In this document: positions 977-8,607 of the stretch, piece by piece | How the letters are laid out: each line of letters opens with the position of its first letter | Numbering within the stretch: position 1 is the first letter of the stretch | From: an uncultured Lachnospiraceae bacterium | GTDB lineage: Bacteria > Bacillota > Clostridia > Lachnospirales > Lachnospiraceae | Assembly (NCBI GenBank): GCA_902782815.1 | Contig: CACZOS010000108.1 | Span: 1-10,047 of the forward strand | Reading direction: 5' to 3' | DNA: 10,047 bases | Translations under genes and position numbers: made by a program | The notes under the pieces: generated by a model | Seen by the model: the letters and a program-made list of their open reading frames with translations, nothing else | Told to the model about the DNA's origin: nothing | The model's database searches: none

Positions 977-1411
977 TCAGGCCAGGAATCCGCCCATGTC
1001 CTCATCGGAAAGGGTGACAATGCCGTTTCGGTTAAGTACGGACTCTGCTTCCACGATATCATCCACCCTCAGCACCACATAGGCACTGTCCTGCATGGCT
1101 CCGGTAAAGGCGTAGACATACTCGATATTGACATCGTCATTTTTCAGGATCCTCAGGATATTGTTCAATGCTCCCTTCTGGTCATTCATCTTCACCGCGA
1201 TAACGGAGGTCTCACTGATGATGGTGTTATCATCCAGCGCTTCTTTGGTTTTTTCTATGTCGGATACGATGATTCTTAAGATGCCGAAATCTTTTGTATC
1301 CGCCACGGAGAGGGCACGGATGTTCACTCCTGCTTCCGTGATGGCGCTGACTGCCTCATAGAGGGTTCCGGAGGTATTCTCAAGAAATGCGGATAACTGT
1401 GTAATTGCCAT
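977..1411 (-). CDS. Tandem ACT-domain protein (putative amino-acid-binding regulator)
   Basis: This is a small cytoplasmic protein of 144 residues made only of two ACT domains, roughly residues 3-70 and 71-140. Each half shows the beta-alpha-beta-beta-alpha-beta pattern: the first has 'NTSGTLYEAVSAITEAGVNI', and the second has 'DQKGALNNILRILKNDDVNI' followed by a hydrophobic 'AYVVLRV' strand. ACT domains typically bind amino acids at domain interfaces and act as allosteric sensors. No enzymatic domain is attached, so it probably binds a ligand or a partner protein. Stand-alone double-ACT proteins next to phenylacetate-CoA ligase genes are a familiar pairing in anaerobes and archaea. The start is supported by AGGAGG upstream of ATG. 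It lies 82 nt after the ligase gene and 11 nt before galM on the same strand. Phenylalanine or an aryl acid as ligand is inferred from the upstream Phe-codon attenuator and is unproven. Confidence 0.9.
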   Translation of the reverse strand: MAITQLSAFLENTSGTLYEAVSAITEAGVNIRALSVADTKDFGILRIIVSDIEKTKEALDDNTIISETSVIAVKMNDQKGALNNILRILKNDDVNIEYVYAFTGAMQDSAYVVLRVDDIVEAESVLNRNGIVTLSDEDMGGFLA

Positions 1412-1493: not shown

Positions 1494-2801
1494 TCAGTCG
1501 TGAAGCTTCCGTTTGTCGATCACGCGGACAGCCTTGCCCTCCGACCGCTGGATGGTCTTGGGGGCCACCAGGTGGATCTTGGGCCCGATACCCAGCATGG
1601 ACCGCATGGCCGCTTTCAGGTCCTGCTCTTTTGACTGCATATCGGAAATCTTGTCCGAGAACATCTCTTTGGGGAATTCCACGAAGATATCGAAGGTATC
1701 CGTATTGTTCTTCCGGTCAACCACGATCTGATAGTTGGGTGTATATCCTTCCTTGAGAAGGACGGTCTCAATCTGACTGGGGAATACATTTACTCCGCGG
1801 ATGATCATCATATCGTCACTTCTTCCCATGGGTTTGGTCATCTTTACATGGGTCCTTCCGCAGGAGCATTTCTTGCGGGAAAGGATACAGATATCTTTGG
1901 TCCGGTAACGAAGCAGGGGGAAGCCTTCCTTATCCAGGGAAGTGAACACCAGCTCGCCTTTGGATCCTTCCGGCAGAACTTCTCCTGTATCCGGATCGAT
2001 GATCTCGGCATAGAAATGGTCTTCGTTGATATGCATGCCGGTCTGCTCCTCACACTCAAATGCAACACCTGGGCCGGAGGTTTCGGTAAGGCCGTAAATA
2101 TCGTAGGCTTTGATCCCCAGACTCTCCTCGATCCCCTTACGCATTTCCTCTGTCCACGGCTCCGCACCGAAGATGCCTGCCTTCAGCTTATTGTCCTCAG
2201 GCTTGTAGCCTTTCTCCGCCAGGGTTTCCCCGATAAAGGCGGCATAAGAGGGGGTGCAGCAGAGGATGGTGGCCTGCATGTCCATCATGAACTGGATCTG
2301 GCGGTCCGTATTGCCGGAGGACATGGGCAGGGTAAGGCATCCTACTTTGTGGGATCCGCCGTGTAATCCTGATCCGCCGGTGAAAAGACCATAGCCGTAA
2401 CAGACCTGACAGACATCCTCATCCGTGCCGCCGGCGGCAACGATGGCCCTCGCGCAGCAATCCTCCCAGATGTCGATGTCCTTCTGGGTATAGAAGGCCA
2501 CAACACGTTTTCCCGTAGTACCGGATGTGGAATGAATACGTACACAGTTCTTCAGGTCTGTACCCAAAAGGCCATAGGGATATGCTTCCCGGAGATCATC
2601 CTTGGTGAGGAAAGGCAGTTTCCTGATATCCTCCACACTCTTGATGTCTTCAGGGCTGACTCCTTTTTCCTCCATCAGGTTGCGGTAATAGGGGACATGG
2701 TCGTAAACGTATTTTACTTGTTTTACGATCTTTTCATTCTGGATCTTCAGGATCTCCTCTCTCGAGGCAGTCTCGATCTCCGGTTGATAATAGTGCTTCA
2801 T
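1494..2801 (-). CDS. paaK: Phenylacetate-CoA ligase (anaerobe type)
   Basis: This AMP-forming ligase is predicted to convert phenylacetate (or a related aryl acid), ATP and CoA to the aryl-CoA, AMP and pyrophosphate in the cytoplasm. The 435-residue length is normal for PaaK. The adenylate-forming motifs are in order: the P-loop STSGTTGK (91-98), YGLTE (236-240), LLRYRTKDI with D303, GRSDDMMIIRGVNVFPSQIE in the hinge region, and a C-terminal QRSEGKA with the probable catalytic lysine K423. A CSCGRT motif (C312, C314) typical of this family is also present. The start is supported by AAAGGAG just upstream of ATG. It is the first structural gene after a 310-nt leader with a Phe-rich leader peptide and a terminator, and it precedes a double-ACT gene. 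Related enzymes annotated as indoleacetate or 4-hydroxyphenylacetate ligases cannot be excluded. The context favours aryl-acid salvage toward aromatic amino acids, working with an indolepyruvate-type ferredoxin oxidoreductase that is not in this window. Confidence 0.93.
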   Translation of the reverse strand: MKHYYQPEIETASREEILKIQNEKIVKQVKYVYDHVPYYRNLMEEKGVSPEDIKSVEDIRKLPFLTKDDLREAYPYGLLGTDLKNCVRIHSTSGTTGKRVVAFYTQKDIDIWEDCCARAIVAAGGTDEDVCQVCYGYGLFTGGSGLHGGSHKVGCLTLPMSSGNTDRQIQFMMDMQATILCCTPSYAAFIGETLAEKGYKPEDNKLKAGIFGAEPWTEEMRKGIEESLGIKAYDIYGLTETSGPGVAFECEEQTGMHINEDHFYAEIIDPDTGEVLPEGSKGELVFTSLDKEGFPLLRYRTKDICILSRKKCSCGRTHVKMTKPMGRSDDMMIIRGVNVFPSQIETVLLKEGYTPNYQIVVDRKNNTDTFDIFVEFPKEMFSDKISDMQSKEQDLKAAMRSMLGIGPKIHLVAPKTIQRSEGKAVRVIDKRKLHD

Positions 2802-2897: not shown

Positions 2898-2931
2898 AAA
2901 AAAGGTGCGGCACCGGTTAATGTGCCACACC
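2898..2931 (-). terminator. Intrinsic terminator inside the paaK leader (attenuator 3:4 stem)
   Basis: On the minus strand GGTGTGGCAC (2931-2922) pairs with GTGCCGCACC (2913-2904) across an 8-nt loop: ten positions with one A-C mismatch, followed directly by TTTTTT (2903-2898). It lies about 97 nt before the paaK start and about 180 nt downstream of a strong promoter, so it terminates the operon's own leader transcript. It could also stop read-through from the DUF89 gene upstream, which has no terminator of its own that I can see. Confidence 0.88.
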
Positions 2932-3006
2932 AATGTGATTCTTTCCTCTTCTTCCCTCACATCTTTTCAGCATAGCAAATTAACCTTACTGTTCATGTCA
3001 GTAAAG
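2915..3006 (-). promoter_or_regulatory. Phenylalanine-type transcription attenuator (1:2 hairpin and 2:3 antiterminator)
   Basis: Three competing pairings can be drawn in the leader RNA. Segment 1, CTTTACTG (3006-2999), pairs with CAGTAAGG (2991-2984) as an 8-bp stem with one U-G wobble and a 7-nt loop. Segment 2, GGTTAATTTGC (2985-2975), is complementary at 10 of 11 positions to GCACATTAACC (2925-2915). The pairing extends through TATGC (2974-2970) with GTGTG (2930-2926) using wobble pairs, which covers almost the whole 5' arm of the terminator. Segment 2 overlaps the last codons of the leader peptide, ending one base before its stop codon, and segment 1 overlaps its last Phe codon. A ribosome stalled at the Phe codons would block segment 1 and free segment 2 to form the antiterminator. 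A ribosome reaching the stop codon would mask segment 2 and let the terminator form. This is the classical trp/pheA logic. Pairings were drawn by eye, without energy calculation. Confidence 0.78.
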
Positions 3007-3053
3007 CTAAAGTAAAAGCCGAACTCGAATGTGTTATGAAGACGATTGGTCAT
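2967..3053 (-). CDS. Phe-rich leader peptide of the paaK operon
   Basis: This is a 28-codon open frame, ATG at 3053-3051 and TGA at 2969-2967, too short for routine gene calling. It starts 6 nt after GAGGAG (3065-3060) and about 60 nt downstream of a strong promoter. Residues 9-17 read FEFGFYFSF: five phenylalanines and one tyrosine in nine codons, using both TTC and TTT. This is the signature of a regulatory leader peptide like E. coli PheL, where translation senses charged tRNA-Phe, rather than of a functional protein. The stop codon lies 36 nt before the terminator hairpin, immediately after the antiterminator strand. No protein function beyond being translated is proposed. It is the strongest small-gene call in the window because codon content, ribosome site, position and RNA folding all agree. 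Confidence 0.85.
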   Translation of the reverse strand: MTNRLHNTFEFGFYFSFTDMNSKVNLLC

Positions 3054-3083
3054 CTTGTGCTCCTCGATTGATCTCTTGTGCTC
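3043..3083 (-). repeat. Imperfect 21-bp tandem duplication over the leader-peptide start
   Basis: Two near copies sit side by side on the minus strand: GAGCACAAGAGATCAATCG (3083-3065) and GAGCACAAGATGACCAATCG (3062-3043). They match at 18 of 20 aligned positions, with a period of 21 nt. The downstream copy supplies the ATG of the leader peptide. The upstream copy lacks one T and so has no start codon at the same place. It looks like a small duplication by replication slippage in the 5' leader. Confidence 0.7.
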
Positions 3084-3120
3084 AAGTAGTATTACAGAAC
3101 AACGCTATAGCTTGTAATGA

Positions 3121-3149
3121 ATACTACACCCATTATTTTGCTTTGTCAA
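3121..3149 (-). promoter_or_regulatory. Sigma-A promoter of the paaK-ACT-galM operon
   Basis: On the minus strand a perfect -35 box TTGACA (3149-3144) is followed by a 17-nt spacer and a -10 box TAGTAT (3126-3121). Transcription would begin near 3113-3115, giving a leader of about 310 nt before paaK. This is the best promoter match in the window. A strong constitutive promoter fits a unit controlled downstream by attenuation. Confidence 0.85.
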
Positions 3150-3205: not shown

Positions 3206-4135
3206 TTATTCCTCCTGATTATTCCGGGGATCCAGATCGTTGATCAGCATGCCCGAAAGCCTGGGAACATGGAACATACCGGCAAAGAGATCACATTTGC
3301 AGAGAAAAAGATAATAAATATTCAGACCGCATCGACGCAGGGTTTCAAAATTCGCCTGCCCTTTCGCGATGATCAGGTCTGCCCGGCTGAGGAGGATCCC
3401 CGCTTCCTCAGACAATTCCGGAAGCCAGGTACCCATAATGTCATTGCCGTTTCCCACCACCCGGTCCACCTGACTCATGGAGGTAAGACCCACCTGGACA
3501 GCATCCTCCATGGTGGCATCGTTCATGGTGGGCATCCCCCGCACCACAACGGATACAGATAGGGCAGGATACATCTCCTTGATCTGTTCGATCAGAAGCC
3601 TGTCCATCACGATCTCCCCGCAATTATCCGTAAGAAAGACCAGGTTCCCCCCTGCCGACAGATCTTCTTTAAGCCTCGTGTAGGTCTCCTCCTCAAAAGT
3701 CTTTCTTTCCGCTTCCCGGATCAGCTGGTTCAGAAAGTCCTCGTCCACCTGGTCGATGACCCCGAAATCAATATAGTTCCCCACCAGAGCCAGCTGCATG
3801 GCGAGCTTCAGGGGATCCTCCGCCTCAGCGATCCGGCGGCGGAAGCTGTCGATCCGGTCCAGGAGTATGGCATTGAAGTGTTTCTTGATCTCCGTATAGT
3901 CGTCAGTAAAGCCGAACATCTCAATTCTCAGTTTATCGATGTCTCTGATAATCACCGGTAAAGCCGTGGTCTTCTCCGCATTGGCCATCATTTCCATAAC
4001 TCTCTGCATGAAATCCACTTTAATTGTATCCGGTGTATTCCCGGGATATTTTCTGATATATTTGTTGAAGGCACAGACGATGCAGTCCGGCCGCAGATGT
4101 TCCACTTTTCCGATACGTTTCAGGAGTTCTTCCAT
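3206..4135 (-). CDS. DUF89 / ARMT1-like protein (putative damage-control phosphatase)
   Basis: This is a 309-residue member of the DUF89 family, whose characterised members are metal-dependent phosphatases acting on damaged or overflow phosphometabolites. Visible family blocks are an N-terminal DCIVC (C18, C21), GNYIDFG (119-125), LTDNCGE (168-174, the core Asp-Asn motif), VVRGMPTMNDAT, VGNGND, AKGQANFE (257-264) and YYLFLCKCD with C279 and C281. The cysteine pairs resemble the prokaryotic/archaeal DUF89 branch. The start at 4135 is chosen because AGGAGG (4147-4142) sits 6 nt upstream; a frame extension to 4189 would place that ribosome site inside the gene. It follows the CmpB-like gene by 104 nt on the same strand and may be its operon partner. 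There is no clear terminator after its TAA before the paaK promoter. The real substrate is unknown. Confidence 0.88.
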   Translation of the reverse strand: MEELLKRIGKVEHLRPDCIVCAFNKYIRKYPGNTPDTIKVDFMQRVMEMMANAEKTTALPVIIRDIDKLRIEMFGFTDDYTEIKKHFNAILLDRIDSFRRRIAEAEDPLKLAMQLALVGNYIDFGVIDQVDEDFLNQLIREAERKTFEEETYTRLKEDLSAGGNLVFLTDNCGEIVMDRLLIEQIKEMYPALSVSVVVRGMPTMNDATMEDAVQVGLTSMSQVDRVVGNGNDIMGTWLPELSEEAGILLSRADLIIAKGQANFETLRRCGLNIYYLFLCKCDLFAGMFHVPRLSGMLINDLDPRNNQEE

Positions 4136-4141
4136 GACAAT

Positions 4142-4147
4142 CCTCCT
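4142..4147 (-). promoter_or_regulatory. Ribosome binding site fixing the DUF89 start
   Basis: AGGAGG on the minus strand lies 6 nt before the ATG at 4135. The longer reading frame starting at 4189 would run through this site, and its added N-terminal residues (basic, ending KRRRIV) do not resemble the family, so the shorter protein is preferred. Confidence 0.85.
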
Positions 4148-4239
4148 TCTTTTCCATTCATGTCCCCGGTCCGGTACGGTTCCATCCATACCATCCGCCC
4201 TGTTTTTCCGCCTTATCCTGCTGTCAGGTCAGGGCCTGA

Positions 4240-6249: not shown

Positions 6250-7350
6250 TCATCTGATGGTCCCCAGTCCTTTAGCCACCAGGGTGATGAAATCCTGCAC
6301 ATTGGTCACCACAGTGGTTGCACTGAGACTCCCCCTGTCAAGAAGTTTATTTACCACAAATTCGTCGGCATCCACAGTGTAAAGATATACCGGTCTGACC
6401 TCTCCGTCATCCATAACCCGGAAGGAAGGGGTCATATTCCCCGTGGCGATGGTGTGAAGCATGGTTGCCATGCAGATCACAGTAGTGGCTTTTCTGGTCA
6501 GTTCCCTCATAGCGCTTGCCGCGTCGCAGACGTCATTGATCACCTCGGGGAGAGGCCCGTCGTCCCGGATAGATCCTGCCAGAACGATAGGGATCCCCTT
6601 CTTCACACAGCTGCAGATGACTCCTCCCTTAAGGTCGTAGTCCTTGATAAACTGAGGGATAGACCCGCTCCTGCGGGCTTTATTGCAGACATCCAGATGA
6701 TTGTAGTGGCCGTTAGGCTGGGATTTCTGTGTATAAATGTCCTGTCCCAGGGCGGTATGGAGATAGGCCCCTTCAAGGTCGTGGGTGGCCAGGGCATTTC
6801 CTGCCATCAGCCCATGGGCATAACCGTTTTCGATCAGGGACTGCATGGCATTCCTGGCATCCGCGTCAAAAGCCAGGGCCGGTCCCATTACCCAGAGGAT
6901 AAAACCATGGTCCTTCTCGTATTTCAACAATTCAAATAACTTATCATAGTCCCGGGCATAAGCTGTTTCCCGGCTTCTGCCCTGCCGAAACACAAAGTGG
7001 TCTTCCAGGATGGTCTCTTCATCCTCAAACCCGAACCAATGCAGATATATCCCTTCTTCGCATTTTTCCGTCCTTCCCAGGATTACTTTATCCCCCTTCT
7101 TCAGGTTTCTGGGTTCAATGACCGCAAGATTGCCGTCACTCCGGATCACTACGCAGGAATCCATCCTGCTCTCCCCGGCCAGTTTCCATTCTCCGTCTAT
7201 TTTAAAGTATTCCGGATACATGGACGTACTGTGGAATCCATCGGGAGCCACCCCATCCATGACTGCATATTGCCAGGTTACATCCGGTGCGTTTACAAAC
7301 TTCTCGTCCCTGAAATCGGGATGATGGTATTTGGGCATCTCAAATGACAT
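6250..7350 (-). CDS. Ornithine cyclodeaminase, LOR/SDH-domain (archaeal/AgrE C-terminal) type
   Basis: This 366-residue protein belongs to the LOR/SDH conserved-domain family (the TIGR00300 type), whose characterised members, including the C-terminal half of cyanobacterial AgrE/ArgZ and an archaeal enzyme, convert ornithine to proline and ammonia using NAD. It is not the mu-crystallin-type cyclodeaminase. Visible blocks are GYAHGLMAGNALATHDLEGA (176-195), GHYNHLDVCNKARRSGSI (214-231), VLAGSIRDDGPLPEV (256-270), TMLHTIATGNMTPS (296-309) and DRGS (338-341). The first 100 residues form the N-terminal LOR-like part. The start follows GGAGG with a 6-nt spacer. It begins 21 nt after the arginine deiminase stop codon, so the two are one operon. 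Together with ornithine carbamoyltransferase encoded elsewhere they would turn arginine into proline, a Stickland acceptor in clostridia. Catalysis is inferred from family and context. Confidence 0.88.
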   Translation of the reverse strand: MSFEMPKYHHPDFRDEKFVNAPDVTWQYAVMDGVAPDGFHSTSMYPEYFKIDGEWKLAGESRMDSCVVIRSDGNLAVIEPRNLKKGDKVILGRTEKCEEGIYLHWFGFEDEETILEDHFVFRQGRSRETAYARDYDKLFELLKYEKDHGFILWVMGPALAFDADARNAMQSLIENGYAHGLMAGNALATHDLEGAYLHTALGQDIYTQKSQPNGHYNHLDVCNKARRSGSIPQFIKDYDLKGGVICSCVKKGIPIVLAGSIRDDGPLPEVINDVCDAASAMRELTRKATTVICMATMLHTIATGNMTPSFRVMDDGEVRPVYLYTVDADEFVVNKLLDRGSLSATTVVTNVQDFITLVAKGLGTIR

Positions 7351-7371
7351 GTTATTCCTCCGTCCTATCCT

Positions 7372-8607
7372 CTACTGATCTTCACACAACTCACGGTATA
7401 CAGGCATGCTCATGCAGCGCGGTCCCCCACGTCCTCTTGAGAGTTCCGAACTGGTCATTTCCAATACCCTTATGCCCTTCTCCCGAAGGATCCGGTTGGT
7501 GACATAATTCCTGTCATAGACCAGGACTTTGCCCGGTTCTATACAGAGAGTATTGGACCCGTCATTCCACTGCTCCCTCTCCGAAGCGATCCTGTCCTTT
7601 CCTCCGCAGAGGATCAGGGTTACCTCATCCAGCTCCAGGCAGGAGGCCAGCAGCTTCCTCAGGGGCTGGTCCGCTTCCCTTACTTTCAGTTCTCCGGCTT
7701 TCTCCCCTTTTTTAATCTCGAAAACCCTCAATGACCGAAGGATTCCCGGATGAACGACAAAGGTCCCGTGATCGACCTGGGTGAACACCGTATCCAGATG
7801 CATATAAGCACGGACCGAGGGAATATCCAGAGCGAGAATTGTCTCAATCTGTGCCCTTTCATCAGCAAATATGTTTCTCGCCAGAAGCTCAATGGCCTCG
7901 GCTGTGGTCCTCTGGGAGATGCCGATGGCCAGCACCCGGGGACTCAGGTTCAATATGTCTCCCCCCTCAATGGAATAGGGATAATTTCTGTCATAATAAG
8001 AGGGTCTGATCCCGGCGAATTCAGGGTGATACTTTATCACATACTGGCCGAAGATAGTTTCCCTTCTCCTGGTGGAAGAATGCATCCGGTTCAGGCTGAT
8101 TCCGTTTCCGATACAGGCAAATGGGTCTCTGGTAAAATAGAGATTGGGGATAGGGTCCAAAAGGAACCGGCTCTGGGTACCCAACAGGGATACCAATGGT
8201 CCTCTGCTGCTGATGGAAAGTTCATTTTCCCTCACCCCGGACATAAGCTTTTTGACCAGTTCCTTCTCATCAGGTATCTCCATAAGATATGCCAGAAGAT
8301 TCTCCCTGGTTCCGGGGTCGGTGACATGTCCCTCCTCAACAAACTGCCGGATAAACTGTCTTTTGATCTCCCGGTCCTGTTTTAAAACCTCCGCTGTCAG
8401 ATCCTCCAGATAAAGGACTTCCGCCCCCTGTTCCCGAAGGATCCCCGCGAAAAGATCATGCTCGTACTGCGCTGTTTTCAGATAGGGAATATCCTCAAAC
8501 AGAAGTCTCTCCAGATCGCCGGGAACCAGATGCTCCAGCTCTTTATCCGGCCTGTGAAGAATGACCTTTTTCAGTTTACCGATCTCACTTTTAACCTGTA
8601 CTGCCAT
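7372..8607 (-). CDS. arcA: Arginine deiminase
   Basis: This enzyme hydrolyses L-arginine to L-citrulline and ammonia, the first step of the cytoplasmic arginine deiminase pathway. The 411-residue length is standard. The guanidino-group-modifying fold is shown by FTRDP (D161), YSIEGGD (E214), YMHLDTVFT (H270, D272), EREQWNDGSN and the C-terminal RGRGGPRCMSMP carrying the nucleophile C398. All the catalytic residues known for the family are present. The start at 8607 has AAGGAC about 8 nt upstream, a moderate ribosome site. It has its own promoter just beyond the terminator of the upstream TIM-barrel gene and is followed after 21 nt by ornithine cyclodeaminase. Neither arcB (ornithine carbamoyltransferase) nor arcC (carbamate kinase) is present here, so the classical arc operon is split in this organism. 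Confidence 0.96.
   Translation of the reverse strand: MAVQVKSEIGKLKKVILHRPDKELEHLVPGDLERLLFEDIPYLKTAQYEHDLFAGILREQGAEVLYLEDLTAEVLKQDREIKRQFIRQFVEEGHVTDPGTRENLLAYLMEIPDEKELVKKLMSGVRENELSISSRGPLVSLLGTQSRFLLDPIPNLYFTRDPFACIGNGISLNRMHSSTRRRETIFGQYVIKYHPEFAGIRPSYYDRNYPYSIEGGDILNLSPRVLAIGISQRTTAEAIELLARNIFADERAQIETILALDIPSVRAYMHLDTVFTQVDHGTFVVHPGILRSLRVFEIKKGEKAGELKVREADQPLRKLLASCLELDEVTLILCGGKDRIASEREQWNDGSNTLCIEPGKVLVYDRNYVTNRILREKGIRVLEMTSSELSRGRGGPRCMSMPVYRELCEDQ

Follow-up and report, generated by a model that had tools for sequence, protein, structure and literature searches.

The leader upstream of paaK, the phenylacetate-CoA ligase gene of the window (the whole 10,047-nucleotide stretch of DNA analyzed here), is very probably a ribosome-mediated transcription attenuator that senses charged tRNA-Phe and induces phenylacetate salvage for phenylalanine supply. 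The first-pass annotation had read it as attenuation of the trp/pheA type, and this reading is supported by conserved Phe-rich frames, by covarying stems and by nascent-RNA folds in 12 of 12 leaders.

On the minus strand, between positions 3149 and 2898, a promoter, a GAGGAG motif, a leader frame, a 1:2 hairpin and a terminator with its T6 run follow one another in this order ahead of paaK. The promoter-like sequence TTGACA-17-TAGTAT (3149–3121; 10/12 in the pattern scan) lies where it had been annotated; promoter-like patterns occur in the window at about background frequency (14 vs 11.9 expected), and several other leaders carry comparable hexamers at the equivalent position (by eye). Directly 3′ of it, the stretch ACAAGCTATAGC (3115–3085, minus strand) is identical in the window and in two related leaders (L113 and L114), and is a possible early 5′ hairpin or operator. 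The Shine-Dalgarno sequence GAGGAG (3065–3060), which has purine-rich counterparts 5′ of the leader start in nearly all members of the family described below, serves a frame of 28 codons (3053–2967) that reads MTNRLHNTFEFGFYFSFTDMNSKVNLLC. This frame, with its FEFGFYFSF stretch, is present as first described; it is predicted to be translatable, and its five Phe codons within codons 9–17 form a regulatory-codon run of the trp/pheA type. The 1:2 hairpin, supported by folding and covariation, lies within the 3′ half of the frame: segment 1 (3010–2999) pairs with an arm at 2991–2980 that overlaps segment 2, giving 12 bp rather than the 8 bp originally reported. Likewise, the antiterminator was correctly recognized but its bounds (2985–2970 with 2930–2915) are slightly wider, 16 of the 17 positions of segment 2 (2985–2969) pairing with segment 3 (2931–2915), again with covariation. 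Segment 3 is at the same time the 5′ arm of the intrinsic terminator 3:4 (2931–2904; 10 pairs, 7 G–C, covarying), which together with its T6 run (2903–2898) precedes the first gene, paaK, as in trp/pheA-type leaders. Both this terminator and the placement of the stop codon (2969–2967) just 3′ of segment 2 match the earlier description. Between segments 2 and 3, the minimum-energy fold contains a further short stem (2963–2957 with 2938–2932), and a similar stem is seen in several relatives (by eye, uncounted). Overall, the fold of the leader RNA beats 199 of 200 shuffles (z = −3.00).

The conservation of this leader was examined at 110 paaK loci, 30 drawn from the family (299 genomes searched, 177 of which gave some match) and the best 80 from genome contigs. 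Sixteen of them have, no more than 700 bases upstream of paaK, a frame of 10–60 codons in which a stretch of ten contains four or more Phe. Ten of the 110 carry the conserved core, so that the leader is an unusual companion of paaK; nine are distinct, L005 and L040 being the same contig. The filter also passed frames at L018, L049, L066, L075, L093 and L098, which have no match to the covariance model R1 and were dropped as unrelated. R1 was built from eight of the nine distinct leaders, L004 having been misplaced by MAFFT in alignments A1 and A2, omitted from A3 and then recovered through the covariance model. It finds a single copy in the window's genome, matches 4 of 24 genomes of the genus (with three further paaK leaders, L113–L115) and matches at least 10 of 397 genomes of the family; the large genome searches scored nine candidates per genome, so the R1 family count and the R2 family and class counts given below are lower bounds. 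The scan of loci with R1 took 100 loci (leaving out L001, L002, L040, L071, L095 and L106–L111); weak matches in L012, L058, L063, L069, L070 and L091 were rejected by eye, and further weak matches fall in L042, L090 and L007 (E 0.5 to 3.4) and, as second matches, on the other strand of leader loci. L128, which precedes paaK in G520, a genome from a different family of the class, brings the number of distinct paaK leaders to 13. When 130 distinct PaaK proteins are placed in a tree, the leader-bearing ones fall within one clade of 17 (support 0.954). Upstream of four other genes of this clade (L003, L156, L157 and L159) the leader was not found, nor was it found upstream of the partial PaaK at L161, which is of this type but too short to be placed in the tree.

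The Phe-rich frame with covarying 1:2, 2:3 and 3:4 stems, which had been proposed as a check on paaK orthologs, is indeed conserved among them. In the alignment of eight leaders (A3), 97.8% of cells form 1:2 and 3:4, and 94.5% form 2:3; shuffles matched the 2:3 percentage in 7 of 500 cases and its number of two-sided pairs (one) in 386 of 500. In the alignment of all 13 paaK leaders (A6), 1:2 and 3:4 are formed in 97.3% of cells, with two-sided changes in 9 pairs and 13 cells (0/500 shuffles for each value), counts that are biased in favor of these two stems because A6 was fitted to them. The competing 2:3 pairing is formed in 95.6% of cells (0/500) and shows seven two-sided cells (0/500), but its two two-sided pairs are not above the shuffles (208/500). 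Shifting the partners by 1–3 columns lowers pairing to 27.5–43.2%. Across the 33 members of the wider family, the duplex of segment 2 with its own segment 3 has a mean energy of −19.8 kcal/mol, compared with −13.9 kcal/mol for cross pairs, and the own-partner mean was reached by none of 20,000 permutations, likewise when permuting within classes of downstream gene. Own pairing is not special in seven of the 33 (L056, L120, L125, L130, L131, L134 and L137; 12–30 of 32 foreign arms pair equally well), so that either the segment cut is crude there or the antiterminator is weaker. The mutually exclusive 1:2, 2:3 and 3:4 pairings that define an attenuator are conserved, more weakly in some aroF members. 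Together, the conservation and covariation of the leader in relatives make coincidence untenable.

These pairings suggest the following mechanism. A ribosome would load at 3065–3060 and, with phenylalanine plentiful, would reach the stop codon and mask segment 2, so that the 3:4 terminator halts transcription before paaK; in the absence of a ribosome, 1:2 would form, and the terminator likewise. When Phe-tRNA is scarce, the ribosome would stall on the later Phe codons (13–17), masking segment 1, and segment 2 would be available for pairing with the emerging segment 3. Phenylalanine limitation would thus let the antiterminator form which, if it persists until RNA polymerase is past, would allow paaK and the following ACT-domain gene to be transcribed. 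The ribosome states were modeled by folding 12 of the 13 paaK leaders (L128 was left out) with the ribosome footprint removed. When the ribosome sits on the penultimate or the final Phe codon and the RNA extends to segment 3, P(1:2) is 0.00 and P(2:3) is 0.76–0.89 (0.89 in the window for stalls at codons 13, 15 and 17), while P(3:4) is 0.84–1.00 with the ribosome at the stop codon and 0.85–1.00 for full-length RNA without a ribosome. Energy-model folding, suggested in the first-pass annotation as a check, therefore gives the expected stall and stop states for nascent RNA in 12 of 12 leaders, but two results count against the reading. At full-length equilibrium, 11 of 12 leaders form the terminator even when the ribosome is stalled, the antiterminator holding only in L036, and in nascent RNA without a ribosome P(2:3) is 0.33–0.56 in four of 12 (the window, L032, L036 and L037). 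As the terminator is favored at equilibrium despite the stall, antitermination must be a kinetic outcome.

The same core also precedes other genes of aromatic metabolism. A second covariance model, R2 (22 sequences), matches at least 13 of 397 genomes of the family and at least 13 of 391 of the class, in 26 distinct places. Five of these (L126, L127, L138, L139 and L140; E 4.5e-4 to 9.4e-4) were rejected by eye as having no aromatic leader before a fitting gene; for L125, L135, L136 and L137 (E 1.3e-4 to 6.1e-4) the leader and the gene together were the grounds for acceptance, so that the presence of aromatic codons is partly an acceptance criterion, but the identity of the aromatic residue is not. 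The 33 accepted members combine R2, R1, the genus search and the Phe-filter loci. Pfam was used to check ten proteins encoded downstream at eight of these loci, and NCBIfam for seven of the ten as well; the rest were named by eye. Leaders before prephenate dehydratase genes carry Phe codons (L121, L123 and L124) or Phe and Tyr codons (L132); those before DAHP synthase genes, which are often followed by a prephenate dehydrogenase-looking gene, carry Phe and Tyr (L119, L120, L122, L125, L129–L131 and L133–L137); those before TrpB-like genes carry Trp (L118 and L056); and those before a sodium:solute symporter gene and then paaK carry Tyr and Phe (L061 and L072). The codon totals are F78 Y6 W2 for paaK (13 leaders), F63 Y44 W1 for aroF (12), F21 Y5 W0 for pheA (four), F7 Y1 W5 for TrpB-like (two) and F6 Y8 W0 for symporter–paaK (two); the contrast of F with Y between paaK and aroF leaders has a Fisher p of 4.8e-8 which, the leaders being related, is not a tally of independent events. 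Across the 33 members, aromatic codons make up 28% of the leader frame compared with 10.7% and 14.2% of the other frames, and the core [AG]ATTTG[CT]NNTGC is present in 27. In L121, L123 and L124 the antiterminator lies slightly further upstream, with covarying GAGCC/GGCTC, GAACC/GGTTC and GGACC/GGTCC (by eye), and the own pairing is better than with all 32 foreign arms.

Two arrangements within this set stand on their own. In L056 (1316–2917, plus strand) a leader with Trp and Phe codons is followed by a TrpB-like gene and then paaK, which suggests salvage of indole or indoleacetate for tryptophan. In L061, L069 and L072 the gene directly 5′ of the paaK-type gene encodes a sodium:solute symporter (confirmed by PF00474 in L072), which may import arylacetates; L069 has a comparable terminator before its symporter–paaK operon, and a leader was not found there.

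Downstream of the window leader, paaK (1494–2801, minus strand) encodes a protein with Pfam AMP-binding and AMP-binding_C_2 domains that matches TIGR02155 from end to end but, at 518.4 bits, falls short of the curated equivalog cut-off of 646.3; we describe it as a PaaK-like ligase with a putative aryl substrate. The next gene (977–1411, minus strand; PF19571), for a protein with a pair of ACT domains, is likely co-transcribed with it, and the order paaK then ACT recurs in L061 and L070 (by eye). The window's genome (84.6% complete) also holds a full iorA above the curated cut-off, followed by an iorB-looking frame (by eye). PaaK would convert phenylacetate to phenylacetyl-CoA, which indolepyruvate:ferredoxin oxidoreductase (IOR) would carboxylate to phenylpyruvate, the precursor from which transamination would give phenylalanine.

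Prephenate dehydratase (PF00800) was not found in the window's genome, while the control was detected in 14 of 14 named genomes. Among 42 genomes, PF00800 is missing from five of the seven with leader-paaK (G000, G304, G314, G315 and G053, but not G167 and G520) compared with two of the 35 others (G308 and G040; Fisher p = 4.7e-4). This apparent link between leader-paaK and the absence of PF00800 homologues from draft genomes is suggestive only, because the five genomes are 78–93% complete and four are congeners. The window PaaK shares 87% identity with the G520 protein, from another family, but 66–70% with the ordinary PaaK found in congeners, a pattern that suggests transfer of the leader-paaK unit; G303, G317 and G318 have both PaaK types. 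Its nearest paaK relatives come from deer and reindeer MAGs and from RUG isolates, the latter being rumen genomes, and we infer that the window comes from rumen or gut.

The direction of these reactions bears on an unlikely alternative, in which a genuine attenuator serves another balance, with PaaK and IOR running fermentatively, from phenylalanine to phenylacetate. IOR-type enzymes can work in both directions, which counts in favor of this alternative. So does the IOR of Bacteroides thetaiotaomicron, which PMC13285125 cites as taking part in the conversion of phenylalanine to phenylacetate; the same paper argues for a possible biosynthetic role of ligase-linked IOR, since AMP-forming ligases favor acyl-CoA synthesis, and PMC7356843 states that rumen cultures can make phenylalanine from phenylacetate. 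A gene for phenylalanine breakdown should not be induced when phenylalanine is short, the core is shared with the leaders of biosynthetic pheA, aroF and TrpB-like genes, and prephenate dehydratase is missing. That paaK would be switched on by phenylalanine shortage argues that PaaK and IOR build phenylalanine from phenylacetate, and the most likely role of the regulated paaK is phenylalanine supply. The leader thereby offers regulatory evidence on the direction of ligase-linked IOR in gut and rumen metabolism, and predicts growth without phenylalanine in organisms that lack prephenate dehydratase.

The signal itself could also be different, with free phenylalanine or another small molecule causing a TnaC-like arrest of the nascent chain in place of codon starvation, as the conserved C-terminal part of the peptide in the paaK group (FSFTxxxSKVxLxC) might indicate. 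We regard this as very improbable, since that conservation follows from base pairing by the same bases, and members of other pathways have different peptides with their aromatic codons exchanged.

A still more remote reading takes the hairpin as merely the 3′ terminator of the upstream gene and the frame as a chance reading. An ARMT1-like gene (3206–4189) does end at 3206 on the same strand, upstream of the leader, the window is rich in terminator-like sites (25 vs 9.2 expected) and the Phe-count filter also catches the unrelated frames named above; the conserved frame, the alternative pairings, the pairing of each segment with its own partner and the match of codons to pathway stand against it, and it is contradicted by the A6 covariation and the own-partner permutations (0/20,000). 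Elsewhere in the window (6250–8607, minus strand), an arginine deiminase gene (7372–8607) precedes one (6250–7350) for a putative nickel-pincer-nucleotide-dependent ornithine cyclodeaminase, the two resembling the halves of ArgZ split into separate genes.

Finally, control of paaK by a T-box or metabolite riboswitch is scarcely credible: T-boxes do occur elsewhere in the window's genome, but none of 4227 Rfam families matches the window at gathering score, nothing in the leader approaches a cut-off at E up to 10 (best, atoC, 17.2 of 50 bits), and the T-box covariance model (RF00230) has no match there while finding four elsewhere in the genome. These four (contigs C184, C323, C298 and C112; L149–L152), three of them over the cut-off, precede genes named by eye as 2-isopropylmalate synthase, an oxoacid oxidoreductase subunit, anthranilate phosphoribosyltransferase and isoleucyl-tRNA synthetase, so that T-boxes and a peptide attenuator coexist in one genome. 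An Rfam scan of 40 of the 110 paaK loci and of 20 member loci returned only tRNAs, a sole T-box, which lies downstream of paaK (L111), and an azaaromatic (yjdF) riboswitch (L072, 6035–6158, plus strand), which lies roughly 2 kb past paaK in that contig piece.

Beyond the charged-tRNA attenuator itself, the chances are about even that one ancestral RNA switch was recoded across clostridial aromatic metabolism, that phenylacetate salvage replaced prephenate dehydratase in one lineage, and that the leader-paaK unit crossed families. If so, Phe, Phe/Tyr or Trp codons would have been fitted to pheA, aroF-tyrA, TrpB-like and arylacetate ligase operons, and PaaK with IOR would be the regulated route to phenylalanine. 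The recoded family and the link to missing prephenate dehydratase go beyond what the first-pass annotation observed, and a clostridial family with codons exchanged per pathway is a natural series for studying the recoding of a switch.

The E. coli pheA, pheST and trp leaders combine a peptide rich in regulatory codons, mutually exclusive 1:2/2:3/3:4 pairings and an intrinsic terminator. All three features are shared by the leader described here, which differs in belonging to another phylum, in having no Rfam match, in placing its stop codon just after segment 2 and in controlling an arylacetate CoA ligase gene instead of one for a tRNA synthetase or the shikimate pathway. For Proteobacteria, peptide attenuators are textbook material; from Firmicutes there are few reports of them. 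A related precedent is uORFC-13-1, a proposed Phe-reading uORF reported only from Acholeplasma and environmental sequences (PMC8632094): both have a Phe-codon uORF directly upstream of a terminator and an aroF target (12 of 33 members here), whereas uORFC-13-1, by its published description, is reported only before aroF and our family also precedes other genes. PMC2965389 and PMC9413887 describe His leader attenuators in Firmicutes, including some Eubacteriales, which share peptide-sensing transcription attenuation in Gram-positives but have His codons and his/hisS genes. The mutant-supported ilv-leu attenuator of S. aureus (PMC5794164) is likewise a regulatory-codon leader with a terminator in a Firmicute, with Leu/Ile codons and branched-chain genes, and hisZ and lysQ peptide attenuators are cited within PMC4833913. 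The T-box (RF00230) also senses tRNA charging for amino acid genes, but reads the tRNA directly. In a limited search of open-licence literature, none of the passages retrieved describes an attenuator before paaK, as the first-pass annotation had supposed, or one core recoded among Phe, Tyr and Trp. As the mechanism is known in Firmicutes and the paaK and recoded forms are absent from those passages, the leader is apparently a known mechanism in a new use, before paaK, and in a new clostridial family.
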